DNA from: Ruminococcus sp.
GTDB lineage: Bacteria > Bacillota > Clostridia > Oscillospirales > Ruminococcaceae
Reading direction: 5' to 3'
Assembly (NCBI GenBank): GCA_015066805.1
Contig: SVNP01000020.1
Location: 1-43,582, forward strand
Length of the DNA: 43,582 nt
The notes below the pieces were generated by a model. It had not been told where the DNA came from. It saw only the letters and a list, made by a program, of their open reading frames with translations, and made no database searches. Below are positions 16,997-36,956 of this stretch, in pieces; the stretch's first letter is position 1, and the number at the start of each line of letters is the position of its first letter. The translations under genes and the position numbers were made by a program.

Positions 16997-17752
16997 ATGG
17001 CAATGCTGGAAGTCAAACATCTGCGAAAAAGCTTTGGCAGCCTTGAGGTGCTGAAGGATATCTCGTTTACCGTTAACAGCGGCGATGTGGTTGCGGTTAT
17101 CGGCCCCAGCGGATCGGGAAAATCCACCCTGCTGCGCTGTATCAATCAGTTGGAGAAAGCCACTGACGGAGAGATCTGCGTATGCGGCAAGGAAATGCTG
17201 GTGAAAAATCCTAAGGGCAATGTGACCTACACCGACCCCAAAACCCTTCGTGAGATCCGTCTGCACATCGGGCTGGTGTTCCAGAATTTCAATCTGTTCC
17301 CCCACTTTACCGTGCTGCGGAACATCACGGAGGCACCCATCCATGTGCTGAAACAGAATCGGGCAGAGGCGGAGAAAAACGCCATGATCCTTCTGGAGAA
17401 AATGGGGCTTTCTGCCAAGGCAAACGCCTACCCCTGCGAGCTTTCCGGCGGACAGCAGCAGCGTGTTTCCATTGCACGGGCCCTGGCACTGCACCCGGAT
17501 GTGCTGTTCTTTGATGAGCCCACCTCTGCACTGGATCCCGAGCTGACCGGTGAGATCCTCAAGGTCATCCGTGAACTGGCTGCCGAGGGTATGACTATGG
17601 TGATCGTCACACACGAAATGGCCTTTGCAAGAGATGTAGCCGATCGTGTGATCTTTATGGAAAACGGCATCATCGTGGAGGAAGGTACCCCCGATGTGCT
17701 GTTCAGTGAGAACGCCTCGGAGCGTACCAAACAGTTTTTGCAGCGATATTAA
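16997..17752 (+). CDS. Polar amino-acid ABC transporter ATPase (GlnQ/HisP-type)
   Basis: This 251-residue nucleotide-binding subunit has Walker [10 protein letters not shown] (36-44), the Q-loop Gln at about 96 ([12 protein letters not shown]), signature LSGGQ (149-153), Walker B VLFFDEP (169-175), the D-loop SALD and the switch His in IVTHEM. The PAAT-family ATPase drives amino-acid uptake with the preceding permease. AAGGAGG precedes ATG 16997. The insertion around residues 70-80 ([13 protein letters not shown]) is slightly longer than usual. The two-gene unit ends at the strong terminator 17758-17796. Confidence 0.95.
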
Positions 17753-17757
17753 ACACA

Positions 17758-17796
17758 AAAAGCAGTCCTGTTTCCCATAGAAACAGGACTGCTTTT
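17758..17796. terminator. Bidirectional terminator between convergent genes
   Basis: A perfect 17-bp stem (17758-17774 with 17780-17796) around CCATA is rich in A/T at its base and gives a U-run on both strands. Confidence 0.93.
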
Positions 17797-17801
17797 TTGA
17801 T

Positions 17802-20800
17802 TTACTGCATGGTTTTTTCCTTGCGGTACAGCAGCTCCACATTGGCTGCCTTGGGTACATGGTGAGATTCATCTACACGGAATGTAACAAAATAATCGTA
17901 CCGCTGCAGATCCAGATCGCCATCGCTGAGATCCGTAAAATCCTTGTAGGAGAAATTCAGCTTCCCCTTTGCCCACTGAATATTACCCTGCCGGGTAACG
18001 GGGTTGAACAAACCGATCCGTCCCGCACAGCGGTCATCGGCAAAGGCTCTTTTTTCCAGCACATGGGTTCGCAAAGCTTCTCTGTCCAGTGCGGATTTTG
18101 CAAGCTCTCTGGCAATGGCAATGGTGTTGGGATCGGAAGCATTGGCAGTCAGATAGGTCAATGCGGTGCTGCAAGCTGCCTGCTGATCGCCGGAAAGACA
18201 CTGTAACTGCATCCGATATCCCATGCGCACCACATTGGGCAGCAGATATCCGTGGCTTTCCATAGCCTGTCGGAAAACGGTTTCATCATTGCAGCGCAGG
18301 CAGGCGTGGTAAATCAGCTCCATGCCCTTATCGGGAGGCAGCATAGCCTGCCGCAGCATGGTGTAGCCGATCTGTGCAACCTTTGCCATATCCTGTGCAG
18401 CTTCTGCCTCAGCCATGGCTTGTTCCAAGGCATGTTTTTCCTCTGCGATCACTGCCGCATAGGTAGGCAATGTCAGATTTTCCGCATCCATCTCGGTGAC
18501 AGTCAGAGCACCTTGGGCATCCAGCGCAAAGGTCACACGAAGCTGTTGCCCCAGATCATAGCCGCTGAGATCGCCGGGGGCTTCAAAATTCCCCATGGGG
18601 CACTGCAAGCGCAGACCATCCACTCCTAAGGGCGAAACCACATCGGCAAGCTGCTGCTTGGCAATGACCTGTACTGCGCTTCGGGCAAGCACGCCCGGCT
18701 CTGCGGATTTATGATACACACAGCGATACAGCACAGCCTGCCGCAGGAAATCCTGCTGCTGCATCCAGCCGGTGGTGACTGCATCGCCAAAGGTACCTGC
18801 GTGGCAGCGGATCTTTTCATCCACGGTAAAATAGGTTCCGGGGCGGTAAGCACCTGCAACAGTACCCTCCTGCCAGGGAAGCTGCTGCAGCAATGGCTCA
18901 TCAAAGGCACGCAGCTTATGCACACGCAGCTCACCGTTATGCAGCCGCAAAGAATACAGACAGGGCATGGAAGCCGCACCGCCTTGCTTCAGAATGCGGT
19001 CAGGCTCCGTACCGATCACATTATGAATACGGAAGGGGTATTGCCCGTTGACCTTGCCGCTGAGTGCGGCGGTCATATAATGGGTCACAACGCCCGCAAA
19101 GAACAGCTCCTTGATCTCCCCGACGGGAATGGCTGTCTGCTGTCCGTCATTTTCTAAGGTCAGTACATCCTCTGCAAAGGACACAAAGCGGCCGAATACA
19201 TTCTCATCCTGCTTGCGCTCTACCAGCATGGTTTCCCCTTGGCAGAACTGCAGCCGATGATATTCGTCTTCCGCCAAGGGCTGCACCACAGGCTCCTTCG
19301 GTGCTGCCTCGGGCTTGGGCAGACGCTCCAGCACCACCACATTGGTAGCACGCCGCGGCAGGCCGTTTACATAATTAAAGGCCACCTTATAGTGGTAGTG
19401 ATAGGTATCCAGCGGCATTTCGGGATCCATATCCGTTTGCTCAAAGAAGATATTGCCTCGTTCGGCAACGCCGTAATTCATCTCATGGCAGATATAGCCA
19501 CTGCGGGCAGCGGTGCGGAACAGCATCACATAGCCGATCTCCTTATCCGCCATATTTTCTGCTGTGCAGCGGTTTGCAGGGAACTCCGGCTCAGTGGAAG
19601 GCTTGGGCAGCTCTGCATCATCGGCATCTGCCATTACACGGATCATCTCTGCGATATCCACGTACTGCTGCTTTTTCTTGTTGTAGCGTGGCTGCAGGCC
19701 CTTGTAGAAGTACACTACCGCACCATAACGGATCCGTGCCGCTTCTTCAATGGACATATTATGCGTCACAAAGCTATAAGTATGTCCTTCGGTATCGGTG
19801 ATGACACCAAAGCCGTTGGCAGGAATAAACAGCGTGATCTTACCGCAGCGTTCTCCGGGAGCAAGGGGTGGCAGAGGGGCTGCTTCTTCTGTCATATCCG
19901 CCTCGATCTGTACAGGCTCCGGCTGCTTTGCGGCTTCTGCCGCACCAAAATCGGTATTGGTCAGCAGTTCAAACAGCTTACGGCAGCAGATCGCCGTGTC
20001 ATTGTCGCTGAGTACATCTTCAGGCACCACAGCACCCACAGCAACAGCATAATGAGCCATCGCCCGCAGATAAGGCAGCTCTGCACCACGGCACCATTTT
20101 GCCGTCAGATCGGTCAGCACAGCGGCACTGCCCTGCTGTTCGCACAGTACAGCCAGCAGGCGCAGCAAATTCTCATCATTGGCGCACAGGCGATCCCAAT
20201 GAACAGAAAAGCACTCCAGAGCAGCACTGCGCTCCTCATTGCCCCCTGCCATCAGTGCCACTTCACCAATAATAGACAGCAGCGGCACACTGGCATAATA
20301 GGTATTGGTCACCTGGATCAGCTCTGCCAGAATACGGGGCGTGCGCTGATATTTTGCTTCATACTCGTTGATTTTAATGGCATTCTGCAAAGAATTCAGC
20401 TTTGCATTGCATTCTCCCGCCAGCGTTCCGTCCTCACGCAGGCGTGCCTGCAATGCATTCAACGCCATTTTTGCCTGTTCCAGAGGAGCAGACAGCTCCA
20501 GCAGGCGATCGGCAGCAGTCAGCTTACGGGGAGCAGGTGCAGCAAAGGCAGAGCTTTCTGCCGGTGCGGACTGTGCAGGTGCCGCTGCTGCAGGAGCAGG
20601 CACCACAGCGGGTGTGGCGACAGACACCGGGGCAGCAGCCGTTGCTGTGCCCACAGTAAACATTCCGATATAATCCAGCATGACCATGGTTTCCAATCCA
20701 TTGGCCCCACGGATACAAATAACTTTTTCATCCAGCTCCACAGGTACACCGCTGATCTGCACGCCGTTTTTGGTAGTCAGCACCACCGATTTTTTTTGTT

Positions 20801-21029
20801 CCAGGCAGCCACGCAGGCGATAATGCAACTGACGCTCCGCCGATTTTTCAAAGGTTCCTATGATACCGTAATCAATAAACTGAGAGGACCCGTCGGTGCG
20901 GCGCAGAATAACGCTCTGCGGTAAAAACTGATCCACAATGCCGCAGCATTCCTGACCGTTGATGTAAGTAATACAGACAGGATCACCCGGCTGGAAGGAT
21001 TGCTGCAAAAATTCTTTTGTTTTTGTCAT
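17802..21029 (-). CDS. Large protein with Sm-like and cold-shock-like modules (putative RNA-binding)
   Basis: By eye this 1075-residue cytosolic protein is modular. Residues 6-62 and 68-127 are two short beta-barrel-like repeats with Sm/Hfq rhythm (VCITYINGQECCGIVDQF; then VVLTTKNGVQISGVPVELD). An Ala/Pro linker (128-168) and a helical region (169-365) follow. Cold-shock-like barrels lie at 395-465 (CGKITLFIPANGFGVI), 497-570 (ending RRATNVVVLERL) and 1002-1070 (CAGRIGLFNP, ending PKAANVELLYR). A third Sm-like piece lies at about 598-648, and a helical region resembling TPR at 853-998. I infer single-stranded RNA binding or chaperoning; the aromatic RNP residues of CspA are only partly kept. 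ATG 21029 follows GGAGG. The promoter at 21108-21136 leaves a leader of about 70 bases with a hairpin. No family recognised with certainty. Confidence 0.6.
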   Translation of the reverse strand: MTKTKEFLQQSFQPGDPVCITYINGQECCGIVDQFLPQSVILRRTDGSSQFIDYGIIGTFEKSAERQLHYRLRGCLEQKKSVVLTTKNGVQISGVPVELDEKVICIRGANGLETMVMLDYIGMFTVGTATAAAPVSVATPAVVPAPAAAAPAQSAPAESSAFAAPAPRKLTAADRLLELSAPLEQAKMALNALQARLREDGTLAGECNAKLNSLQNAIKINEYEAKYQRTPRILAELIQVTNTYYASVPLLSIIGEVALMAGGNEERSAALECFSVHWDRLCANDENLLRLLAVLCEQQGSAAVLTDLTAKWCRGAELPYLRAMAHYAVAVGAVVPEDVLSDNDTAICCRKLFELLTNTDFGAAEAAKQPEPVQIEADMTEEAAPLPPLAPGERCGKITLFIPANGFGVITDTEGHTYSFVTHNMSIEEAARIRYGAVVYFYKGLQPRYNKKKQQYVDIAEMIRVMADADDAELPKPSTEPEFPANRCTAENMADKEIGYVMLFRTAARSGYICHEMNYGVAERGNIFFEQTDMDPEMPLDTYHYHYKVAFNYVNGLPRRATNVVVLERLPKPEAAPKEPVVQPLAEDEYHRLQFCQGETMLVERKQDENVFGRFVSFAEDVLTLENDGQQTAIPVGEIKELFFAGVVTHYMTAALSGKVNGQYPFRIHNVIGTEPDRILKQGGAASMPCLYSLRLHNGELRVHKLRAFDEPLLQQLPWQEGTVAGAYRPGTYFTVDEKIRCHAGTFGDAVTTGWMQQQDFLRQAVLYRCVYHKSAEPGVLARSAVQVIAKQQLADVVSPLGVDGLRLQCPMGNFEAPGDLSGYDLGQQLRVTFALDAQGALTVTEMDAENLTLPTYAAVIAEEKHALEQAMAEAEAAQDMAKVAQIGYTMLRQAMLPPDKGMELIYHACLRCNDETVFRQAMESHGYLLPNVVRMGYRMQLQCLSGDQQAACSTALTYLTANASDPNTIAIARELAKSALDREALRTHVLEKRAFADDRCAGRIGLFNPVTRQGNIQWAKGKLNFSYKDFTDLSDGDLDLQRYDYFVTFRVDESHHVPKAANVELLYRKEKTMQ

Positions 21030-21107: not shown

Positions 21108-21136
21108 ATTATATGTCATCTTTCACGAAAAGTCAA
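21108..21136 (-). promoter_or_regulatory. Promoter of the Sm/cold-shock-like gene
   Basis: Minus strand TTGACT (21136-21131), 17-bp spacer, TATAAT (21113-21108). Confidence 0.85.
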
Positions 21137-21296: not shown

Positions 21297-22430
21297 ATGG
21301 CACTGAACACGCAAAAATTCAGCGAATCCACAGAACTGTTCTACGAAAAAAAAGACAGCGTCTTCTGGGGAGATTACAACGGTTTTCCCATCTGCCTGCA
21401 CTATAACAGTCAGCGAAGCTACTTCACCTTTGCCCTCTGCGCTGCCGTACCCGACGCAGAAGCCTTTGCACAGGCTCTGAAGGAATGGGAACGCAGTATA
21501 CAGGGCATCTCTCAAAGCGTTTATGAGCGCAATATGCTGCGCTGTATCATTACCATCCCCGGTATGCAGAGCAACGAAAAAGCAAAAATCAGTCTGGATT
21601 CCATTACCACCTTTGCACGGCATAACGGATTGATCCCCTGCTGTGCCACCTGCGGCGATACCACATATTACGCCCCCCATATGGTCAATGAAAATCTGGT
21701 GATGCAGCTCTGCGATTCCTGTGCAGGACGCATTGAAAACAGTTTTGAAGAAACAAAAGCACAGGAGGATACTGCAAAGCCCAATTGGGGCGGTATTCTG
21801 CTGGGCATCCTGATCGGTGCGGCGGCTCTGTTTGGTCTGACCTATCTGCTGCATCAACTGGGCAGACTGCATTTTATCAGTGGCTATATCGGCGTGATGA
21901 TCTCCCTGTTCTGCATGAAAAAGCTGGGCAAAAAGATAACCGTACCCGCCGCCTTGCTGGCTGTAGTCGCTTGTCTGGCGGTGGCATACATCACCCCATG
22001 CTTTGCCATGGCACAGGATCTTTCCAAATTTGTACGGGAGGATTTTACCCCTGATATGCAATCCAAAGGCTACACCATTACCGCACTGAATGAATACATC
22101 ATGCTGGTGGATGAAGGCCTTGCCACCATGAGCGACAGTGAGATCCAAGAGAATTTTGGCGGTACCCGTGCGGAATTGCAGGAATCACGCACCGCACTGA
22201 ACGAAGCACTGGTGCTGATGAAGGATTACCCCACCACCAAAGCCTGCTTCTTAAACATCTGGGAGCTGAGCAGTCTCCGTATTATGGAAACCGATGACAG
22301 CTCCGTGAAAAATGAGTTGATTAAGAGCATTCTCTGGGGTGTTTTCTCCGTAGCAGTGGGCGCATTGCTGACCATTCCCGGTGTGTTCCGCAGCAACAAA
22401 ACGCGGTATAAGATCCGCCGTTTGGCATGA
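21297..22430 (+). CDS. Membrane protein of unknown function with a C4 zinc-ribbon-like motif
   Basis: This 377-residue protein has an N-terminal cytosolic domain (1-160). The domain ends in two CXXC knuckles, Cys116-x2-Cys119 and Cys139-x2-Cys142, suggesting one bound zinc. Hydrophobic helices follow at about 166-185, 191-206, 216-236 and 347-366. A charged, mostly helical loop (about 240-345) lies between the last two. I do not recognise the family. ATG 21297 was chosen for AAAGGA just upstream and a promoter at 21238. It is divergent from the Sm/cold-shock-like gene and overlaps the flavoprotein gene by four bases (ATGA), so it is translationally coupled to it. Confidence 0.65.
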   Translation: MALNTQKFSESTELFYEKKDSVFWGDYNGFPICLHYNSQRSYFTFALCAAVPDAEAFAQALKEWERSIQGISQSVYERNMLRCIITIPGMQSNEKAKISLDSITTFARHNGLIPCCATCGDTTYYAPHMVNENLVMQLCDSCAGRIENSFEETKAQEDTAKPNWGGILLGILIGAAALFGLTYLLHQLGRLHFISGYIGVMISLFCMKKLGKKITVPAALLAVVACLAVAYITPCFAMAQDLSKFVREDFTPDMQSKGYTITALNEYIMLVDEGLATMSDSEIQENFGGTRAELQESRTALNEALVLMKDYPTTKACFLNIWELSSLRIMETDDSSVKNELIKSILWGVFSVAVGALLTIPGVFRSNKTRYKIRRLA

Positions 22431-23754: not shown

Positions 23755-24316
23755 TCCGGAATTGCTGGATCTGCTGCTGCATGATCCGGAAGAAGGCTGC
23801 CGTGTGCTGCTGACACAGTATACAGGCTTTGTACTGGCCATTGTGCGAAAACGCATTGGCGGCGTATGCAGTCCGCAGGAGATGGAAGAGCTGGTCAGCG
23901 ATATTTTGTTTGATCTCTATTGCAGGCGGCAGCGCATCCAATTGGAAAAAGGCAGTATCAAGGGATTGCTTGCCACCATGACCATGCATCGCTGCACCGA
24001 CTGGTATCGGCAATACACCTCACAGCAGGCAAAGGCTGTGCAGGTGGATGAAACCCTTCTGCCCGAGGCGGCAGATCCTGCATACGATCCCGAGGAGCAG
24101 TACCTGCACAAGGAGCAATGTGAGCTGCTGTTTGCTGCTATGAAACAGCTCAGTGAAACAGACCGTAACCTTATTATGTGGAAGTATTACTTCGGAGAAA
24201 CCGCATCGGAGATCGCCGAACGGCTTTCCATGCGGGTAGGTGCCGTGGAAATGCGGATCTCCAGAGCGAAAACCAAACTGCGAAAACTGTTGGGAGGTGA
24301 TATCAATGTTGTCTGA
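23747..24316 (+). CDS. ECF-type RNA polymerase sigma factor
   Basis: This sigma-70 family protein of about 189 residues has only regions 2 and 4. Region 2 (about 10-85) includes the EEMEELVSDILFDLY-like core-binding helix (as QEMEELVSDILFDLY). Region 4 (about 130-185) carries LSETDRNLIMWKYYFGETASEIAERL and the recognition helix VGAVEMRISRAKTKL. Such factors redirect polymerase to a small set of envelope or stress promoters. Three starts are possible in frame: GTG 23738, ATG 23741 and ATG 23747; I prefer the last for its spacing from AGAAGG. It overlaps the following gene by 11 bp, the usual arrangement with a cognate anti-sigma factor. Confidence 0.88.
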   Translation: MSDPELLDLLLHDPEEGCRVLLTQYTGFVLAIVRKRIGGVCSPQEMEELVSDILFDLYCRRQRIQLEKGSIKGLLATMTMHRCTDWYRQYTSQQAKAVQVDETLLPEAADPAYDPEEQYLHKEQCELLFAAMKQLSETDRNLIMWKYYFGETASEIAERLSMRVGAVEMRISRAKTKLRKLLGGDINVV

Positions 24317-25280
24317 AAACAAAAAGCTGTCTGCTATGCTTCATGACTTAAATGATGACCAGCTTGCAGAGCTTCTTGGCACGATGGAACTGCCCGCTGC
24401 CTCTGCTGCCGAGGAACAGCGCATTGCGGCCCGTTTTTTTCAAAAGGCGCAGATGCAGCCCGCTAACACAACAACATCTGCCGAAACCATTCACCTGACC
24501 CACCAACTGCCCCGCTCCGCAAAGAAAAAGCATTGGTATTCTCTGGCTGCCGTTGCCTGCCTTGGGTTGATGATCACAGCCACCGCCGCCATGCTGATGC
24601 ATCTGCCGCGCCTGCAAATTCAGGACAGCACCCCCCCTTCGGATTCTACCACCACTGCAAGTACTACCGCATCAACGCCTGAGGATTCTGATGTGGATTC
24701 TACTGTTTCCGCAGTCACCACCACCATCACTCAAGGCTCTGAGCATTCGGATTCCGTCAGTGCAAGTGCTACTACCCCCGACACTTCCTCGGAAGAAAGC
24801 AGCACCACTACCGATTCCACTTTCAGTACAACGGTTCCCCCTGTCACCACTAACGTTCCCTCTGCCACATCTACCACCACAACCACCTTGACCACTACAA
24901 GCTCTGCCACGCCGCCTGTTCTTTCCAGCACGACCACTGCCACCACTTACACGCCGCCCCTCAGCACCACAACACCGCCTTATACCAGTGTGGTACCGCC
25001 CCAGAGCACCACCACCTATTCCCGATTGACTTCCACCACTACCACCACAACAACCACAACAACCACTATCAGAACAACATATACCACATTGCTGACCACA
25101 ACCACCGCGTCCCTGCCGATCTTCACATCCAGCACAGCGGCAAGCATCTGGCCTGAAACCACCTCAGAAACCACAACAACAATCACAACCACGGAGCTGC
25201 CATCTGCCGCTGCTGTTTATCTGCGCTCCTGTTCCATGGCAGATCTCATTCGTTGGAACCGGAATCAACAAAGTCAATAA
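24306..25280 (+). CDS. Putative anti-sigma factor with Thr-rich extracellular domain
   Basis: The 324-residue protein has a cytosolic N-terminus (1-75) of helical, acidic character, one transmembrane helix (about 78-98) and a long exported region. Most of residues 105-295 is Thr, Ser and Pro with runs of Thr. The tail contains a single Cys near residue 309. Overlap with the ECF sigma gene and the membrane topology suggest it holds the sigma factor inactive until an outside signal arrives. The sequence is not clearly a ZAS-domain anti-sigma factor, since no HxxxCxxC motif is seen. The Thr-rich part is probably a cell-wall-spanning, possibly glycosylated spacer; unlike RsgI proteins it has no sensing domain at the end. 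GGGAGG precedes ATG 24306. Confidence 0.65.
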   Translation: MLSENKKLSAMLHDLNDDQLAELLGTMELPAASAAEEQRIAARFFQKAQMQPANTTTSAETIHLTHQLPRSAKKKHWYSLAAVACLGLMITATAAMLMHLPRLQIQDSTPPSDSTTTASTTASTPEDSDVDSTVSAVTTTITQGSEHSDSVSASATTPDTSSEESSTTTDSTFSTTVPPVTTNVPSATSTTTTTLTTTSSATPPVLSSTTTATTYTPPLSTTTPPYTSVVPPQSTTTYSRLTSTTTTTTTTTTTIRTTYTTLLTTTTASLPIFTSSTAASIWPETTSETTTTITTTELPSAAAVYLRSCSMADLIRWNRNQQSQ

Positions 25281-25281
25281 C

Positions 25282-25319
25282 AAAAAACGAGCCTCACGAT
25301 CAAGTGAGACTCGTTTTTT
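25282..25319. terminator. Bidirectional terminator between anti-sigma gene and sugar ABC operon
   Basis: AAAAAACGAG (25282-25291) and CTCAC (25293-25297) pair with GTGAG (25304-25308) and CTCGTTTTTT (25310-25319), with one C-A mismatch. It ends transcription from both sides. Confidence 0.88.
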
Positions 25320-25333
25320 ATGGATGAAAGCAA

Positions 25334-26506
25334 TCAGCCAACCAGACCGGAACGCTCAATACCCTCTGTGAAATGTCTTTGCAGGCACGCATAGAGAATG
25401 AGCATCGGTGTAATGGAAATCAGACAGCCGGATTCCAGCCAGACGATCTTTTCACGGGCGCTGACCTGTGCATTGGCGTTGTTGAAGATCGCCAGATTCA
25501 GGGTAGTATCCAGGTTCTTCAGCACCAGAGCAATGGTCTTGGTGTTGGTGAAGAAGGAGCTGCTAACGTAGAAGTCGTTCCAGTACCAGACGATGGAAAA
25601 CAGAAATACCGTCAGGAAGGAAGATGCTGCGTTGGGCACCATAACACGAATAAAGGTGTTGAAGGGGCCGCAGCCATCCAGATAAGCCGCATCCTCCAGT
25701 TCCTTGGGCAGACCACGGAAGAACTGACGGAAGATGAAGATCATCAGGCCGGAACGGATACCGTTTGCCATCATGGCGGGCAGATACATAACTGCAAACT
25801 TGTCGATGAGGTTAACGGCACCGAACATAAAGTTCTTGAAGGTCATATACAGCGGAATGGAAAGGATCTGGGTAGGCACCAGAATCATCAGAATGACGAT
25901 GCCGAACAGCAGATCTCTGCCCTTGAATTTGAAGCGGGCGAAGCCGTAGCCGGTAATGGCACAGGTCAGCACCTGCAGCAAAGAACAGCCCAGATTCAGA
26001 ACCAGCGTATTGAACAGCGGATTCTGGCGGTTGGCAATGGAATTGGTCAGACCCATTGCGTTGATGGTCTGCTTCATGACCTTCAGGGTCAGGTTGCGGG
26101 GGATCCACATAACGGTGGGGTCGTTCATATCGCCGCTTTCACGGAAGCCGTAGCTGATCATGAACATCAAGGGGGTAAGGATAACAAAGCCCAGACCAAA
26201 GAGAATCAGGAAACGGAATACGGGCCACGCCTTTTCAAAGATCATCTTACGGCGCAGGTAGCCGATCTCCTGCTTGGTCATGCTCTTCATGCGGATCTTC
26301 ATTGCCTCCTTGGGAGACATACCGCTGCCCACTTCCTTCTCCTCGTGCACAACAGGCTTGGCGGATTCGGGAATATAGCCTTCCGGCAGATTGTGGGGAC
26401 GATCCGAAGAGGACTTTGCAGGTGCAGCCTCCACAGCAGGCACCTCCACAGGCGGGGTTTCGCCCTGCTCCTGCGGGGTCGGGGTGATCAAGTTTTCATT
26501 TTCCAT
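25334..26506 (-). CDS. Sugar ABC permease, MalG-type, second pair, with long N-terminal extension
   Basis: This 390-residue inner-membrane permease has six hydrophobic segments within about 95-385. The MalG-type coupling loop ELEDAAYLDGCGPFNTFIRVMVP (about 277-299) contacts a shared ATPase. Residues 1-90 form an unusual cytosolic extension rich in Pro, Glu and Ala, absent from ordinary MalG proteins of about 280 residues. It is the last of eight genes in the operon, 12 bp after its MalF-type partner. The operon encodes no ATPase, so a genome-wide MsmX-type ATPase is expected. The extracellular part between helices 1 and 2 is long, as in permeases for large oligosaccharides or uncommon substrates. 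Confidence 0.9.
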   Translation of the reverse strand: MENENLITPTPQEQGETPPVEVPAVEAAPAKSSSDRPHNLPEGYIPESAKPVVHEEKEVGSGMSPKEAMKIRMKSMTKQEIGYLRRKMIFEKAWPVFRFLILFGLGFVILTPLMFMISYGFRESGDMNDPTVMWIPRNLTLKVMKQTINAMGLTNSIANRQNPLFNTLVLNLGCSLLQVLTCAITGYGFARFKFKGRDLLFGIVILMILVPTQILSIPLYMTFKNFMFGAVNLIDKFAVMYLPAMMANGIRSGLMIFIFRQFFRGLPKELEDAAYLDGCGPFNTFIRVMVPNAASSFLTVFLFSIVWYWNDFYVSSSFFTNTKTIALVLKNLDTTLNLAIFNNANAQVSAREKIVWLESGCLISITPMLILYACLQRHFTEGIERSGLVG

Positions 26507-26518
26507 AGCTGCACCCCC

Positions 26519-27439
26519 TTATTCTACTTCGTAGAAGATAAACTTGTTGATGATGACGGTAATAATGCCCACCACGATCATGACAATGGCAAAATAGCTC
26601 CACGCCATGGCCGCTGCGTAGCCGTAATCCCACTCCAACTGCTTTTCCAGAACTCTGGACATAACGCCGTTATCGGTTGCGGTAAAGGAATCAATAACAG
26701 TGTAGATGAAGTTTGCAAGGATCATGGGGCTGACATAGGGCAGAGTGATCTTCCAGAAATACTCCCATGCGGTAGCACCCTCCATGGAGGCAGCCTCCTT
26801 GGCAGAGGGGGGGATATTCTGCAGGGCAGCCAGGAAGATCAGAATCTGGATACCGGAGCTCCACACCAATCCGAAGATATCGGTGGTCACGGTATTGATG
26901 ATCTCACTGAGGCTGTCGCTGATGTTCATAACACCCAGAAACTCCAGCAGCTCATCCACGATATCCGTCTGGAACAGAGTGGAGAACTGTGCGCCGCTGT
27001 CGGCACCGGTGCTGGCAATATCACCGTTGATAATGTTGTACACAGGACCGGTTGCAATGATAACAGGCAGGAAGAAAATGGCACGAGCAAAACCTCTGCC
27101 CTTAAATTCCTGGTTCAGGATCACGGCGATGAACAGAGAAAACACAAGGATCATGGGGGTGGTGAGGGCGGTATCCTTCAGCACCTCCAGCAGCTTCTGC
27201 TTATAGGAAGGATCGGTTGCAAAGGCATACTTGAAGTTGGCGATCCAACCCCAGTCGGCCAGAGGCAGCCACTCCTTGTTCATGCCGCCCACCTCAGGCT
27301 TCAGAGAACCGTTATCCATGAAGCAGTAACAAAGGGATTCTACCATAGGCTTAAGGAACCAGAGAATGGTGCCTACCAGCCACAGCGCAATAAAACCGTA
27401 TCCGTAGAGGGATTTTCTGCGTTCATATGGGATCTTCAT
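26519..27439 (-). CDS. Sugar ABC permease, MalF-type, second pair
   Basis: This 306-residue permease has six hydrophobic helices and the coupling motif SAKEAASMEGATAWEYFWKITLP (about 212-234). After the first helix it has an extended external loop (about 35-85) with the segment GGMNKEWLPLADWGW, resembling permeases of the LplB/YteP branch but longer. It should pair with the MalG-type subunit 12 bp downstream. Its start overlaps the stop of the DUF5696-like gene by four bases (ATGA on the minus strand), tying its translation to that exported protein. No ATPase or second binding protein accompanies it. Confidence 0.9.
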   Translation of the reverse strand: MKIPYERRKSLYGYGFIALWLVGTILWFLKPMVESLCYCFMDNGSLKPEVGGMNKEWLPLADWGWIANFKYAFATDPSYKQKLLEVLKDTALTTPMILVFSLFIAVILNQEFKGRGFARAIFFLPVIIATGPVYNIINGDIASTGADSGAQFSTLFQTDIVDELLEFLGVMNISDSLSEIINTVTTDIFGLVWSSGIQILIFLAALQNIPPSAKEAASMEGATAWEYFWKITLPYVSPMILANFIYTVIDSFTATDNGVMSRVLEKQLEWDYGYAAAMAWSYFAIVMIVVGIITVIINKFIFYEVE

Positions 27440-29802
27440 TCAAACACCACATCTCCTTCCTCTACATAATCGCGCAGGTAGCGGGTTTCGCCGTCAATGC
27501 TCACAGAGCAGTTTGCCAGATCCACCACAGTTTTTACGCCATTTGCATAGGTGGTGGAGATCACATCGTCCTCCTGCACATAGCTGACGATGTAGGAATC
27601 ACTGGTCTTTGCCAGAATATCCTTGGTGAATTGATAATACTGTGCAGCATTTTCCACCCAGTACTCGTAGTAGCCGTAGTAGTAGATGTCAAAATCCGTA
27701 TCCTTCAGCTCACTGGTCTCGGCATAGAGCATATCAAAGCGCAGGTTGCTGCCGGATGCCAGTGCCAGCATCACCAGACGCTCTGCGTCGGCACTGCCGT
27801 TGACTGCTCTGGTGGAATAGGGAATCACGCCATGCAGCACCATCTGATACAGGGGGATATCCTCATCCAGAATATCAAAGCCGCTGGAGTACAGAGGAAT
27901 ATCGGTAATCGTATCGGTATAGGGCAGCACATAGGCGTTGGGATCCTGAGAAAGCACGGTTCCCACCTCGGTACGAAGGGTAGACAGGCTGTTTTCAATG
28001 GCCTGCATGGTCTGCTCACGGGAGGTTGCGGACTTTTTGCCGTAATCGCCGTACAGCAGGGAGGACATCTCACCGATGCTTACGCTGGTAAGACCGGCCT
28101 TCTTGTAATTCTTGGCCAGCTTCTCGTACAGCTCGGTAAAGGTGGAGGGCGAAAGCAAGGACATGGTCTTCTTTTCGCCGTAGGGCACGCCATAGGCACG
28201 CTCGTAGTCCACGATTCTTGCGAAGGAACCGGAAACACGGACAGCGGTATCGGTCAGGGAGAAATAGCCTGCGCCGGAGTAATAGGCGTAGTTATTCACC
28301 GTGGGAAACCACTGCACGCTGTTGCCGTTCATGTAATCCACCAGATCGTTGAAATCAGACTTGCCGCCCAGCGTACCGGAGGGCTTTGCCTTGTAATCTA
28401 CCTTGCCGCTGATGCCTGCGTTGGTCCAGTTGTTCATGGAAACAACCAGATTCTCCGCACCTGCGGTCTTTAACTGTTCCAGGATCTTCTGTGTTTCCTC
28501 GTAGCTGGTCATACTGGTTTTCATGAACACGGGGAAGCCCAGAATATTTCTCTGCTTCATGGTGCCGCCGTACACATCCACATAGCACAATGCGCTGTTA
28601 GCCTGTGCCTTGACCTGCACGCCTTCATCCTCCAGCAGATACTCACGATATCTTGCGGCGATGTCCACATAATCCAGTTCCTTGCCGCCGTCGGCGTTGA
28701 CCTCATCCTCCGTGCAAAGAGGATAATATCTCGCCTGCATGGTCACCTGGGGCATATTTTCCTGATACACCGCCAGGGGGGTAAGCTGATCGTTGCCCAG
28801 ATAGTATTCATCGGCACTGCGGGTCACAAACTCAAAGTAGCAGATGTTGTACTCGGTGTTGGACTGACCCGTACCGCTGACAGCCGCCTTGATATTGCAG
28901 TTGCCATCGCCGGAGGTTGCCACAGCCAGCAGAGCGTTCTCACCCTTGACGATACCGTACATGGGAAGAGAGATGCCCTCAGTCACCGCACCCTTGGTCT
29001 TGGGAACAGCAGTCACATCCTTGCCGTAGATGGGCTGGTTGTAGGTTTTTGCGCTGTACTTGCGGTTGTTGAAGTTGATCAGTGCGCCGCTGCCATCGGG
29101 AATGACAAAGTAGCCGTCCTCATCTGAGCCGGCAGCACCAAATGCGTTCAGCATGGAAAGTGCCTGTGTAAGAACAGGGCCTTCCTCGTGATCGGGACCG
29201 TATTTCTCGGTAATATCGGAGGAATCAATGGTAACCTGAAGATAATCCTCCCCCAGCTCATACCGCACGGGAATCTTGATGCCCACCTTACGGTAGTTGT
29301 AAGTGACCTCAATACCGTTGCTCAGGCTCTTGTAGCTGATGGAGGTCTTGGAGGTATCGCCGGAACGCACCGTAGTGGTGGAACGGTCATCAATTTCGGC
29401 GGCAGTCAGGATCAGTCCGGAGGACAGACCCTTTGCCAGCACGGGTGTTGCAATGGAATCCCCTGCGGCATTGATCGGCGACGACCACCAGATATAGCCG
29501 TTTTTCTTGTTCTTCAAAGCGAACACGTCTTCGGGCTTCTCGTCGTTGTCCTCATCCACTTTATCCTCGTCCCAGGCATACAGGGCAAGGTTATCGTTTT
29601 CGGCAACGATCTTCATCTTCTGCAGAACTTCTTCTTCGGTGCGGTCTACCCAGACCTCCTCATCGTCGTCGCTGTCGGTTCCCGTAGTGGAATCGGCTGC
29701 GGAATCGGCGGGGTCATCGGCCAGGGCAGGCAGTGCGCTGATACCCGTAGGCAGCAGCATCGCAGATGCCAAAAGGCAAGCGATCATTCTTTTTTGTTTC
29801 AT
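27436..29802 (-). CDS. Exported DUF5696-like protein, possible glycoside-hydrolase-type fold
   Basis: The 788-residue product has a signal peptide (about 1-28, ending ALPALA), then an Asp/Glu-rich segment, beta-rich domains (about 90-400) and an alternating helix/strand part (about 430-700). The latter looks like a TIM barrel: GFPVFMKTSMTSYEETQKIL followed by SMNNWTNAGIS and later WFPTVNNYAYY. I recall DUF5696 proteins of similar size next to YIP1 and sugar-permease genes in Paenibacillus and Clostridia. Hydrolase activity is inference; the catalytic acids are not identified. I chose ATG 29802 over GTG 29817, because a signal peptide starts there and GGCGGTGA lies upstream. It sits between YIP1 and the second permease pair. 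Confidence 0.7.
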   Translation of the reverse strand: MKQKRMIACLLASAMLLPTGISALPALADDPADSAADSTTGTDSDDDEEVWVDRTEEEVLQKMKIVAENDNLALYAWDEDKVDEDNDEKPEDVFALKNKKNGYIWWSSPINAAGDSIATPVLAKGLSSGLILTAAEIDDRSTTTVRSGDTSKTSISYKSLSNGIEVTYNYRKVGIKIPVRYELGEDYLQVTIDSSDITEKYGPDHEEGPVLTQALSMLNAFGAAGSDEDGYFVIPDGSGALINFNNRKYSAKTYNQPIYGKDVTAVPKTKGAVTEGISLPMYGIVKGENALLAVATSGDGNCNIKAAVSGTGQSNTEYNICYFEFVTRSADEYYLGNDQLTPLAVYQENMPQVTMQARYYPLCTEDEVNADGGKELDYVDIAARYREYLLEDEGVQVKAQANSALCYVDVYGGTMKQRNILGFPVFMKTSMTSYEETQKILEQLKTAGAENLVVSMNNWTNAGISGKVDYKAKPSGTLGGKSDFNDLVDYMNGNSVQWFPTVNNYAYYSGAGYFSLTDTAVRVSGSFARIVDYERAYGVPYGEKKTMSLLSPSTFTELYEKLAKNYKKAGLTSVSIGEMSSLLYGDYGKKSATSREQTMQAIENSLSTLRTEVGTVLSQDPNAYVLPYTDTITDIPLYSSGFDILDEDIPLYQMVLHGVIPYSTRAVNGSADAERLVMLALASGSNLRFDMLYAETSELKDTDFDIYYYGYYEYWVENAAQYYQFTKDILAKTSDSYIVSYVQEDDVISTTYANGVKTVVDLANCSVSIDGETRYLRDYVEEGDVVFE

Positions 29803-29822
29803 TAACAATGTGTTCACCGCCT

Positions 29823-30452
29823 TTACACGCGCACTCGATACAGGATCTCTGTATAGATGGAGTAGACAAATACATAGAAGTTCTGGAACAGGCTGAGCAG
29901 CAGCACTGCCAGGAACAGGATGATCAGCATAGCGATCAGTGTCAGCACAATGGCGATGACCGTTTTGGTGAATGTATACTGATGCACCGCTTTAATGGCG
30001 GAGAACAGCAGCATGCCCGACCAGATCAGACCGATGTAATACACCGTGGTGAAGAACACCTGCTCATCCTGAATGAGGATGTGAGAGAGCACCACCTCTA
30101 TAAAAGTTGCTACGATGTAGGGGATCAGCGCATAGGAGCTGTAAATGCAGATATTCTTCATGGTGCCTTCGCCGTCCAGCAAGGTGCAGACCGACCAGTT
30201 GCCGATCACCCATGCGCCAAAATACACAACGCTCATCATGATGTAGGGCACCACGCTGAACATGGCATCGGGCAGGGGGCGGAACTGGAAGCCGCACCAG
30301 CGATCGTAGGCGATCATGGAAAGGAACAGGAAGAAGATGATGATGAAGGTATAGGAGAGCTTTCCTGCTTTTTTCCAGCGCAGATCTTCAAAGCCTTCAA
30401 AGGGGTGGAAGATCGCATGTTTGACAAATTGGGGCTGTGTTAAATCCAACAT
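29823..30452 (-). CDS. YIP1-family membrane protein
   Basis: This 209-residue polytopic protein has about five hydrophobic helices (near 34-50, 66-86, 103-125, 131-152 and 165-195). It has the Yip1-like motif of a small cytosolic N-terminus followed by YDRWCGFQFRPLPD, and a charged LLDGEGTMKNICIYSSYALIPY loop. In bacteria the family often accompanies transport operons, with no established biochemical role. It is cotranscribed between the NHL/TPR and DUF5696-like genes (gaps of 18 and 20 bp). It may be a membrane scaffold for this transporter; this is inference. Confidence 0.78.
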   Translation of the reverse strand: MLDLTQPQFVKHAIFHPFEGFEDLRWKKAGKLSYTFIIIFFLFLSMIAYDRWCGFQFRPLPDAMFSVVPYIMMSVVYFGAWVIGNWSVCTLLDGEGTMKNICIYSSYALIPYIVATFIEVVLSHILIQDEQVFFTTVYYIGLIWSGMLLFSAIKAVHQYTFTKTVIAIVLTLIAMLIILFLAVLLLSLFQNFYVFVYSIYTEILYRVRV

Positions 30453-30470
30453 GATGAAAGCACCTCCTTT

Positions 30471-32009
30471 TTACTCTTCTTCCGGCGTTTTGGGCACCGG
30501 AACTGCGGCTGCCGCGGCAAGCTTTGCATCACGGCGTTTTTTCAGCAGACGCTTTGCCACCTGCCATACCACAAACAAGGCAACCACCGCCACAAGGATC
30601 CATGTCAGGTTGGCCTTCAGGAACTCGGAACGGTATCGCTCAAAGGCCTTGTTGTATCTGCCGGAGGCATCTGCCTTTTTGGCGTACTCCATGGCATCCT
30701 GATACTGACCCATGTTGTAGTAGGCACTGGCAATACCCAAATACGCACGGCGATAGTTACCATCACGCTTGAGCACCTCCAGCCAGGGATCCAGTGCTTC
30801 TTCGTAGTAACCGCCGTTGTAAAGTGCAGTGGCATCGTGTACAATACCGCCGAACACGGTCTGCTCAAAGATGGTCACGGTACCCTTGGTGGCATCCAGC
30901 ACCAGAACTGACTCACAGTTTTCGCCCATGGTTTCCACGGCAACAACACCGCCGGAGGAGAATGCACCTACCTGCTCACCGATGGTACCCATGATGAACA
31001 GCAGGGAGGCTTCCTCATCGTACTGGAACACACGGCCGGTGGTGGCATCCAGACAGTTGATGGAGCCGTCATCGCCGATATCAATATCCACGATCTTGGT
31101 TTTGTAGGTGGTACCGCTGTACCATGTGGAGAACAGATCGCCCCACATAAAGTTAGACATATGGCTGAACAGGTTATGACCCTCCGGGTTTACCTTCTTC
31201 ACGATGTCGGTATCGGTACTGCCCGAAGAGGTAGAGGTATAGATAAAGCCCTTGGTAATGTCGATATCGAAGTTATCAAAGGCTGTGGGGGTGCTTCTGG
31301 CGCGGTATTTTTTCTCCTCCTCGGAGGCAATGGCGTTCCAGAAATGGTTTGCGATTACTTCGGCGGTAGCCGCAACGGCATTGGCACCGTAATAACCGAT
31401 AAACTCGCCATTACGATCGAACATTGCCGCACCCTTGGTGGTGTTGTTCAGCACGATGTACACATTGCCCGCATTATCGCAGAGGATCTTCTGGGGCAGG
31501 AAGGTCAATGCCTGATCGTACACGGTGGAGGTGGGCTTTACGATTTCCATCTGCACCTTCAGGTCGGCATCCACCACCAGCGCACGGGAATTCTCATTGT
31601 CTGCAATGTAGATCAGACCCGTATCCGGAGAAACATAGATGCCCTTAGGGTTCTTCAGCGTAGTTTTGGAGCCGTCGGGCATGGTAAAGGTATCCAGAAT
31701 CTCCAGCACCTCGGTAAACTCGGGGTTGATCTTCAGGATACGGTTATTGCCCGAATCCACGATATAGAAGTTGTTGTCAATATCCTTGAACAGATCCGAG
31801 GGCGCCTTCAGGGCAGTGGTGCCCAGATCCAGACCGGAAACGGAACGCTCTGCCAGATAACCTGCCTGAGAAGGCACGGCTTCACCCAGATAGTTGTAGT
31901 TGTAAACATCATATGGCTCATCGGCAGAAACAGTTGTAACCAGTGCCGAAGCCGCCATCACAGCGGCGATACCGGCAGAAGCGATCTGCCGCAACAGGTG
32001 TTTCTTCAC
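30471..32009 (-). CDS. Secreted/membrane NHL-propeller protein with TPR and C-terminal anchor
   Basis: This 512-residue protein has a signal peptide (1-29). A six-bladed-propeller-like NHL region spans about 60-390 (repeats such as APSDLFKDIDNNFYIVDSGNNRILKI and NPKGIYVSPDTGLIYIADNENSRALVV). TPR units follow at about 395-455 (ALYNGGYYEEALDPWLEVLK, AYYNMGQYQDAMEYAKKA). A transmembrane helix lies at 468-487, then a basic and Ala/Pro tail. The propeller and TPR would face outside, anchored at the C-terminus. Such propellers bind proteins or sugars. It is the fourth gene of the operon, and its job may be to dock the binding protein or substrate to the permeases. Confidence 0.78.
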   Translation of the reverse strand: MKKHLLRQIASAGIAAVMAASALVTTVSADEPYDVYNYNYLGEAVPSQAGYLAERSVSGLDLGTTALKAPSDLFKDIDNNFYIVDSGNNRILKINPEFTEVLEILDTFTMPDGSKTTLKNPKGIYVSPDTGLIYIADNENSRALVVDADLKVQMEIVKPTSTVYDQALTFLPQKILCDNAGNVYIVLNNTTKGAAMFDRNGEFIGYYGANAVAATAEVIANHFWNAIASEEEKKYRARSTPTAFDNFDIDITKGFIYTSTSSGSTDTDIVKKVNPEGHNLFSHMSNFMWGDLFSTWYSGTTYKTKIVDIDIGDDGSINCLDATTGRVFQYDEEASLLFIMGTIGEQVGAFSSGGVVAVETMGENCESVLVLDATKGTVTIFEQTVFGGIVHDATALYNGGYYEEALDPWLEVLKRDGNYRRAYLGIASAYYNMGQYQDAMEYAKKADASGRYNKAFERYRSEFLKANLTWILVAVVALFVVWQVAKRLLKKRRDAKLAAAAAVPVPKTPEEE

Positions 32010-32045
32010 AAGTATCTCATCCTTTCTGTATGTATTTGCCGGAGA

Positions 32046-32918
32046 TCAATCTTTAATGCCGGAATGCGCCATAGTCTCCATAACCTGACTCTGGGCAAGG
32101 ATAAAGAAGAGTACCGGCGGCACAAAGAGGATGACCGCAGCAGCCATGGTAACGCCCTGACGGGAGATACCGGCGGAGGCTGCCTGCTGGATCACGGTTG
32201 GCAGGGTCTTCAGTGCTTCATCGTACACAAGGCTGCCACCCGTAATGTTCCATGCACCCTGGAAGGCGAAGATCGCCATGGTCATCAGTGCGGGCTTCTG
32301 GTTGGGGATGACGATGCGCCAGCAGATGGTAAACAGGTTTGCACCATCCACCTTTGCAGCTTCGATCATGGCATCGGGAATGGAAGTCATGCTCTGACGC
32401 ATGAGGTACAGGCCCATGGAAGATGCCACTGCGGGCAGGATCAGTGCGGAATACTCGTTGATCATGTTCAGCTCAGCCATGACCATGTACTGCATCAGGT
32501 AAATAACATTGCTGTTATACAGCAGTGCCAGCACGATGATGTTGTTGATGAGCTTATTGCCGGGGAACTTTACCTTGGAAAGACAGAACGCCGCCATAGA
32601 GGCGAATACGCACTGAAGCACGGTAACTGCCACGGTAACAAACACACTGTTGAATACATAACGGGAGAAGGGCACCCACATGGCACCCAGCACACGGTAG
32701 GTATCCTTGAAATTATCCAGTGTGGGGTTAAGGGTATACCACTTGGGCGGGAAGATGAACATTTCGTTCACGGGCTTGATGCTGTTAACAACCATCAGCC
32801 AGATGGGCAGCACCATAAAGGTGCCCAGCAGCAGCAGGAAAATAAAGATGGCAATGGAGCCGCCGATCTTACGTCCTGCTCTGCGGTTAGACGCTTTGAG
32901 CTTCTTTGGATCTTTCAT
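32046..32918 (-). CDS. Sugar ABC permease, MalG-type, first pair
   Basis: This 290-residue permease has six hydrophobic segments and the coupling loop IPDAMIEAAKVDGANLFTICW (about 185-205). It resembles the YtcP/LplC branch, which imports oligosaccharides or complex sugars. It starts 12 bp after the MalF-type gene stops, so it is the third gene of the operon. The start context carries GGAGG (in AAAGGAGGCC, upstream of ATG 32918). A shared ATPase must be supplied from elsewhere. Confidence 0.93.
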   Translation of the reverse strand: MKDPKKLKASNRRAGRKIGGSIAIFIFLLLLGTFMVLPIWLMVVNSIKPVNEMFIFPPKWYTLNPTLDNFKDTYRVLGAMWVPFSRYVFNSVFVTVAVTVLQCVFASMAAFCLSKVKFPGNKLINNIIVLALLYNSNVIYLMQYMVMAELNMINEYSALILPAVASSMGLYLMRQSMTSIPDAMIEAAKVDGANLFTICWRIVIPNQKPALMTMAIFAFQGAWNITGGSLVYDEALKTLPTVIQQAASAGISRQGVTMAAAVILFVPPVLFFILAQSQVMETMAHSGIKD

Positions 32919-32930
32919 CGTCGGCCTCCT

Positions 32931-33869
32931 TTAATCCATGTATTTGCCCAGCAGACCACTGATGAACTTGTTCGCCACATACATGACGACGAACAGCACC
33001 ATACAGATCGCAGAGGCATAGCCCATCTCATAACGGATCCAGCCGTAGTCAAAGGCGTGGGTCATAATGGTATGGGCGGCGTAATCGGTGCTGGGGAAGC
33101 CTACCAGGTTTCTCGCAACGATATCTGCGGTAAAGGCGGAAACGATCTGCATCACGGCTGCGAACATCAGAGAAGGACCCATGCCGGGGATGGTGATGTA
33201 GATCAGCTCCTGCCAACGGTTCTTAATGCCTTCAATGGCACCGGCCTCATACTGGCTGCGGTCGATGTTCTGGAAGCCTGCACGCATTGCAAGGAAGCCT
33301 GCGCCCATGCTGACCCAGAGCTGCACGATGATGACCACTGTCAGGATGTACTGGGAGTCGGTCAGCCACTGGATGGCAGAAGTGGTGATGCCCAGGTTCA
33401 TCAGGGCGGAGTTTGCAATACCGTAGCTGTCACCGCTGAAGATAAGCTGCCAGACAGCGTACACGCCGGATGCCATGGAAGGTGCGTAGAAGATCAAAGT
33501 GAAGATGACCTTCAGGGTCGCATTCAGCTCATTGATGAGCCATGCCAGCAGGAAGCTGAGAAAATAGCTCAGGGGGCCGGTGAAAATTGCAAACACCAAT
33601 GTCACACGGATGGCTTTGACGAAAATGCTGTCATTGAGGAACAGGTTATAGAAGTTGCTCAGTCCCACATAGGTGGGGGGGTACTTGACCATGTCGAAAT
33701 CGGTAAGACCGATGGGCAGCGACATGATAACCGGGATGATCGTGAAGATCAGGAACATAAGCATAAAGGGCAGCATCATCAGATATGCTTCCTTGCTCTG
33801 CTTCATCTGCAGCCACATCAGCCGCCGCTGTTCCGCTTTGGATCTCACGCCGATTTGTTCCTTATCCAA
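32931..33869 (-). CDS. Sugar ABC permease, MalF-type, first pair
   Basis: This 312-residue permease has six helices and the coupling segment SQYEAGAIEGIKNRWQELIYI (about 225-245). In place of the usual EAA it reads EAG, as in many LplB-type proteins. The N-terminus (1-30) is basic and cytosolic (RRLMWLQMKQSKEAY). It follows the binding-protein gene by 48 bp and precedes its MalG-type partner. Together with 32046-32918 it forms the first of two heterodimeric channels in the operon. Confidence 0.92.
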   Translation of the reverse strand: MDKEQIGVRSKAEQRRLMWLQMKQSKEAYLMMLPFMLMFLIFTIIPVIMSLPIGLTDFDMVKYPPTYVGLSNFYNLFLNDSIFVKAIRVTLVFAIFTGPLSYFLSFLLAWLINELNATLKVIFTLIFYAPSMASGVYAVWQLIFSGDSYGIANSALMNLGITTSAIQWLTDSQYILTVVIIVQLWVSMGAGFLAMRAGFQNIDRSQYEAGAIEGIKNRWQELIYITIPGMGPSLMFAAVMQIVSAFTADIVARNLVGFPSTDYAAHTIMTHAFDYGWIRYEMGYASAICMVLFVVMYVANKFISGLLGKYMD

Positions 33870-33917
33870 ACGGGAACCCTCCTTTTTTGCGTTTTACGCA
33901 TTCAGATTTTAGAATTG

Positions 33918-36839: not shown

Positions 36840-36956
36840 TGAATCTCCACCTTTCCCGCAGCATAGCAAAGGCCTTTTGCCGCAGATTTTAACGCCGCTT
36901 CTTCAACAAAAACGGCTGTGCGGACGACATTCGCCCACACTTTTCTACATTAGAGT

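Follow-up and report, generated by a model that had tools for sequence, protein, structure and literature searches.

Hfq and the cold-shock proteins (Csps) are the textbook small RNA chaperones of bacteria and are normally separate and short. Hfq forms a homo-hexameric ring; Sm folds, which are typically associated with RNA, join one another via edge strands, and the K-H of the YKHA motif, in the second Sm motif, is part of the Hfq proximal RNA site. Multidomain proteins with cold-shock domains (CSDs) include UNR, with five RNA-binding and four non-binding CSDs (PMC7383231), and the CnuB and CnuC proteins of CoCoNuT systems, a form of type IV restriction with predicted RNA targeting, whose cores are an McrB GTPase or McrC (DUF2357) (PMC11090510). 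Among the bacterial multidomain CSD proteins described so far, CnuB and CnuC are the closest we encountered, and the main text of the paper describing them contains neither "Sm-like" nor "Hfq". Across literature titles and abstract openings (with few subscription journals covered), no bacterial protein was described that joins Sm/Hfq and cold-shock domains, carries tandem Sm folds or combines CSDs with TPRs; given these gaps in coverage, this result is weak evidence of novelty.

The window studied here (the whole analyzed stretch of 43,582 nucleotides, contig SVNP01000020.1 of a Ruminococcus sp. assembly) encodes a 1075-aa protein, P0001, which our data suggest is a single-chain RNA-handling hub of a kind not described before, found to date in three related species. 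We confirmed its minus-strand open reading frame at 17802–21029 (Table 1), with a start codon at 21029 preceded by a GGAGG ribosome-binding site; an alternative, longer ATG at 21119 lies upstream of the implied transcription start. The promoter-like site TTGACT-17-TATAAT is the best of seven in the upstream region, where 3.2 are expected in shuffles, and the contig carrying a 1038-aa relative has TTGACA-17-TATAAT about 73 nt before the ATG (by eye). Both full-length genes are thus predicted to have close-to-consensus sigma-70-type sites and short leaders of ~72–73 nt, while the site of a 657-aa relative, TTGCGT-17-TATACT (by eye), is weaker than either. The first-pass annotation had credited the gene with a long 5' leader and a hairpin in the style of cold-shock mRNAs; we rejected this candidate, as the fold is not significant (z -1.48, with 19/200 shuffles equally stable) and the leader is only ~72–73 nt. 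At the other end, the terminator-like hairpin parts the gene from a converging ABC-transporter gene (16997–17752, +), so P0001 is probably monocistronic and separately transcribed. A 561-codon open frame lies antisense to the gene (19239–20924, +); since the minus-strand protein is conserved, this suggests a shadow frame.

Table 1 Features of the P0001 locus (window positions; residue numbers of P0001 in brackets).
Feature	Positions	Strand	Evidence
P0001 gene	17802..21029	-	ORF with GGAGG ribosome-binding site; relative aligned nearly full length, 42–44% identity
Sigma-70-type promoter-like site TTGACT-17-TATAAT	21108..21136	-	11/12 consensus bases; implied leader ~72 nt
Sm barrel 1, Sm1 (aa 1–62)	20844..21029	-	AF2 helix + 5 strands; Hfq top PDB sequence match; duplicate of Sm2
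Sm barrel 2, Sm2 (aa 64–127)	20649..20840	-	
Ala/Pro-rich linker (aa 128–168)	20526..20648	-	Sequence; pLDDT <50
Helical region 1 (aa 169–358)	19956..20525	-	AF2 helices, partly low confidence; aligned in both relatives
Cold-shock domain 1, CSD1 (aa 393–467)	19629..19853	-	NGFGVI, SFVTH replacing KGFGFI, VFVHF
Cold-shock-like domain 2, CSD2 (aa 496–569)	19323..19544	-	
Probable Sm barrel 3, Sm3 (aa 586–646)	19092..19274	-	AF2 helix + 5 strands; sub-threshold RimP SH3 matches
Conserved region (aa 647–855)	18465..19091	-	42% identical in relative
Helical region 2 (aa 856–994)	18048..18464	-	Eight AF2 helices, pLDDT mostly 45–79
Cold-shock-like domain 3, CSD3 (aa 1000–1069)	17823..18032	-	CSD_V match; related to CSD2
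Terminator-like hairpin, 19 pairs	17757..17797	-	Directly 3' of P0001 gene; longest of 5 sites, 3.6 expected in shuffles

The domain content of P0001 fits an initial reading of three Sm-like and three cold-shock-like barrels with helical spacers. In that reading, two Sm/Hfq-like repeats stood at the N terminus, and both are firmly identified as Sm folds, a helix followed by a five-stranded barrel: Sm2 is backed by structure comparison, and the case for Sm1 combines its predicted topology with the internal duplication and sequence matches. Residues 8–64 and 69–127 form an internal duplication (hhalign E 8.8e-9). In phmmer searches of the PDB, the first match was Hfq (residues 7–68, E 1.2), and a two-row profile found two different Hfqs (residues 5–68, E 0.061; residues 77–133, E 0.17), followed by a designed small barrel. 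Family models gave sub-threshold matches: the first barrel scored 11.8 bits against the Pfam Hfq family (cut-off 27), the N-terminal piece matched three NCBIfam Hfq models (E 0.009–0.12) and, in Pfam, DUF4772 (E 0.0037) ahead of Hfq (E 0.19), and the best Pfam match of the second piece was Flag1_repress (E 0.011). Compared by hhalign with a profile of 20 fetched Hfq sequences, Sm1 scored 17.7 (maximum of 40 column shuffles 15.7, a lead of only 2 score units) and Sm2 scored 19.0 (14.9). A stacked profile of the six N-terminal Sm rows matched Hfq 6gwk in the PDB at E 6e-4, and the other 17 of the 18 matches listed (five Hfq, five LSm4, six ribosomal protein S1 and one FlgA) had E values of at least 0.11.

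A third Sm barrel had also been proposed in mid-protein. AF2 predicts the corresponding helix and five strands; however, pLDDT is only 46–60 over residues 601–640 and lower at the ends, the score against Hfq falls within the range of 40 shuffles, and hhalign finds no clear relation to Sm1 or Sm2; we assign Sm3 tentatively. The K-H pair is present in all 20 fetched Hfqs, but the three proteins lack it in each of their six N-terminal Sm copies. Of the five Sm barrels for which pI was computed, four are acidic (4.2–4.4, with Sm1 and Sm3 of P0001 both acidic and its Sm2 at 8.1). "Hfq-like" should, therefore, not be taken as Hfq-like RNA binding.

The three proposed cold-shock-like barrels stand to different degrees. 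CSD1 is firmly a five-stranded CSD-type OB barrel by both fold and sequence: the best structural match of its model is CspA (1mjc), and its hhalign score against a profile of 10 fetched Csps was 21.0 (maximum of 40 shuffles 13.9). F407 stands where ordinary Csps have the first phenylalanine of RNP1, and F420 where they have the RNP2 phenylalanine; both full-length proteins keep these residues along with NGFGVI and YSFVTH. Sequence gives good support to CSD3 as a CSD. CSD2 is likewise well supported, but as an OB barrel with kinship to CSD3 (hhalign E 6.4e-5), and the structural matches of the CSD2 model are CusF-type rather than Csp-type. RNP1 and RNP2, partly kept in CSD1, are mostly lost in CSD2 and CSD3, which have few RNP aromatics. 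Since both fall within the range of 40 shuffles against Csp, the evidence for them consists of a stacked profile, the PADLOC CSD_V match (CSD3) and the predicted fold (CSD2). CSD_V matched whole P0001 at E 4.8e-6 (best stretch 1002–1065), CSD1 at E 8e-4 and CSD3 at E 4e-4, with no match for CSD2 alone or for the 657-aa relative, P0003, in which F407 is replaced. The stacked profile of eight CSD rows matched a Thermotoga Csp in the PDB (E 1e-3), and 31 of the 34 matches listed were cold-shock, Y-box (YB-1) or CSD-named proteins, the other three being ABC transporters. CSD1 has no detectable hhalign relation to CSD2 or CSD3 (E 0.04 and 0.17), its best Pfam scores came from unrelated families below cut-off (E 0.02–0.09), and PF00313 was not listed for whole P0001 or its pieces. 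The CSDs of P0001 are 13–15% aromatic (13–16% across both full-length proteins); CSD1 and CSD3 are basic, while the CSDs of the 1038-aa relative are about neutral.

That helical regions part the barrels is borne out by the AF2 helices at 169–358 and 856–994, though the models of the helical regions and of CSD3 have low confidence. Residues 647–855 found no sequence match in the PDB, and a search for hidden non-canonical cold-shock barrels in 645–855 gave no support for them: in 12 comparisons, of four overlapping segments with profiles for CSD, Sm and Csp, every score stayed under the best of 25 column shuffles. More generally, AlphaFold predicted OB or Sm barrels for Sm1, Sm2, CSD1 and CSD2 and, with low confidence, for Sm3, as the annotation anticipated. 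The weak sequence signals are for the most part consistent, and no unrelated family matched above cut-off; no Pfam or NCBIfam model reached its cut-off on P0001, and no enzyme family was detected in either library with the whole protein or its pieces. Control profiles with reversed rows found three (Sm) and zero (CSD) sequences, none of them Hfq/LSm or cold-shock proteins. The boundaries of the stacked profiles were set with the domain reading already known, so these controls cover composition rather than boundary choice, and matches of the profiles to their own source proteins arise by construction and serve for coordinates only.

The family is narrowly distributed, occurring in 3/30 genomes of the genus: the window genome, G013 and G014. 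The G013 protein (P0002, 1038 aa) aligns with P0001 over nearly its full length at 42–44% identity and is identical to a protein on a sheep-rectum Oscillospiraceae MAG contig (L009). The G014 protein, P0003, ends after CSD2 with a Pro/Glu-rich tail and has the core order Sm-Sm-helices-CSD-CSD in common with P0001 at 26% identity. Outside the genus, no credible relative appeared in 396 family, 394 order and 398 phylum genomes (overlapping samples that include genus members), nor in plasmids, phages or viral contigs (the last by one pattern scan), and two scans of genome contigs found only the G013 record. Because the first step of these searches was loose, a strongly diverged relative may have escaped detection. 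Four candidates were rejected as an SMC-type coiled coil (L043), a long coiled-coil protein (L069), a frame with internal stops (L044) and a frame among ABC-transporter-like frames (L005). Weak matches comprised L006 (E 0.00987), a sequence with stops in P0001's own genome (L002, E 0.1) and three CSD-profile matches (E 0.01–0.03) in frames of 485–496 aa.

Genomic context differs across the three genomes (the window by Pfam, G013 and G014 frames by eye), with no shared neighbor pointing to a pathway. Pfam identified iPGM, an ABC transporter and an HI0933-like oxidoreductase near P0001. The divergent neighbor (21297–22427, +) is a 377-aa protein without a Pfam match, whose C-terminal half shows membrane helices by eye; it occurs in 25/30 genus genomes and lies on another contig in G013. 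Five long plus-strand frames in 24240–36842 (such as 31161–36842, 1893 codons) likewise lack Pfam matches and may be shadow counterparts of frames on the minus strand, for instance 33918–36869. The genome of P0001 also has an ordinary hfq gene and no PF00313 match over cut-off. Canonical CspA-type genes were found by CSD_V in 0/30 genus genomes versus 10/70 other family and order genomes (several genomes being incomplete, and an eleventh, weak match of 18 positions left out of the count). With the P0001 family in only three of these 30 genus genomes, we rejected a role as a general CspA substitute.

On balance we favor, with a probability of roughly 0.55, a cytosolic and separately transcribed single-chain RNA-handling scaffold in which the CSDs bind RNA, the Sm pair assembles, and the helices space and dock; the most likely predicted function is that of a single-chain RNA chaperone or translational regulator. 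The CSDs, led by CSD1 with smaller contributions from CSD2 and CSD3, would bind single-stranded RNA weakly and jointly, as in multi-CSD UNR. The tandem Sm barrels would mainly assemble the protein rather than form an Hfq-type U-rich RNA site, while the helical regions would keep the barrels apart and offer docking sites to partner proteins. The outcome would be RNA remodeling or control of translation for a subset of mRNAs. The analysis itself establishes the gene, the domains it encodes, a promoter-like site and a narrow occurrence, whereas cellular location, RNA binding, assembly and regulation are inferred. The missing K-H, the acidic Sm barrels and the retained F407 and F420 favor this division of labor between RNA-binding CSDs and an Sm assembly module. 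The scaffold is further supported by CSD identity in sequence and predicted fold, the aromatic-rich CSDs, basic CSD1 and CSD3, the tandem Sm fold, the core order kept in the 657-aa relative, the near-consensus promoter-like sites and the lack of an enzyme family. Counted against it are the computed pI of the whole protein (5.3), acidic Sm1 and Sm3, the lack of K-H, the few RNP aromatics in CSD2 and CSD3, the CusF-type matches of CSD2, the lack of an hhalign relation between CSD1 and the other CSDs, the near-neutral CSDs of the 1038-aa relative, the F407 replacement and missing CSD_V match of P0003, the unexplained region 647–855, the absence of a pathway neighbor and the low-confidence models of the helical regions and CSD3.

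Several of these features would also suit a protein-protein scaffold in which Sm and CSD folds are kept, nucleic-acid binding is lost and only assembly remains. The acidic pI of the whole protein and of four of the five Sm barrels, the absence of K-H from all six N-terminal copies and the degenerate RNP motifs of CSD2 and CSD3 point this way, and pseudo-RNA-binding CSDs exist in UNR (PMC7383231). However, both full-length proteins have aromatic-rich CSDs and conserve the CSD1 motifs, and we consider a loss of all nucleic-acid binding unlikely, if still a serious contender. Binding of single-stranded DNA through the same OB barrels, in replication, repair or competence, seems quite improbable given that no DNA-processing family was found in P0001 or among its Pfam-identified neighbors and that Sm folds keep mostly to RNA. 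In its favor, both RNA and single-stranded DNA can serve as ligands of cold-shock domains (PMC11090510).

Similarly little credence attaches to a role in anti-phage defense or conflict, as kin of the type V retron cold-shock effector or as a sensor of RNA comparable to the CoCoNuT proteins that carry CSDs. Its attraction lies in the best library matches (PADLOC CSD_V and the NCBIfam retron Se72 effector), the patchy distribution, and CoCoNuT CnuC proteins with one or two CSDs, some with HEAT-like helices (PMC11090510). Yet CSD_V also matches 9/14 named control genomes and short Csp-type open frames, so the retron-effector names reflect generic CSD similarity; P0001 has no GTPase, nuclease or DUF2357 match, no relative was found on phages, plasmids or viral contigs, and no reverse transcriptase family was found among ten nearby ORFs scanned (a partial test, as several are possibly shadow frames). 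Returning to the RNA-handling scaffold, the tandem Sm pair could conceivably trimerise into a six-barrel, Hfq-like pseudo-ring with three arms of helical repeats and CSDs. We regard this as rather unlikely; if true, it would be a self-assembling bacterial RNA hub unlike any yet described, in a genus that yielded no free CspA-type protein.

Retron type V cold-shock effectors partner a reverse transcriptase. P0001 resembles the type V and Se72 effectors in having a CSD (PADLOC CSD_V) but differs in length, as their family models span 62–64 positions, and in having no reverse transcriptase among the scanned ORFs. Like CoCoNuT CnuB and CnuC (PMC11090510), whose CSD-like OB folds number one or two and are sometimes accompanied by HEAT-like helices, it is a bacterial multidomain protein, but it has no match to an McrB GTPase or McrC (DUF2357)/nuclease core in Pfam or NCBIfam. 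With Hfq (PF17209; PDB 6gwk, 1kq1), which supplies its top natural PDB matches both by sequence and by structure, P0001 shares the Sm fold with an N-terminal helix and, in Sm1 and Sm2, an NG-x4-G turn; unlike Hfq, it has two (probably three) mostly acidic copies per chain, lacks K-H and stays below the family cut-off. With CspA/CspB (PF00313) it shares the five-stranded CSD barrel and, in CSD1, recognizable RNP1 and RNP2, but it holds three diverged copies within 1075 aa that PF00313 does not match. Tandem copies of both folds in one chain, conserved at 25–44% identity across three species within a single gut genus, would represent a new bacterial architecture for post-transcriptional control, for which eukaryotic UNR/CSDE1 is the natural comparison, without any claim of homology beyond the CSD. 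P0001 has Sm barrels, none being mentioned for UNR in the available part of PMC7383231, as well as helical regions and only three detectable CSDs; like UNR, it strings several CSDs along one long chain, and some of these are perhaps non-binding.
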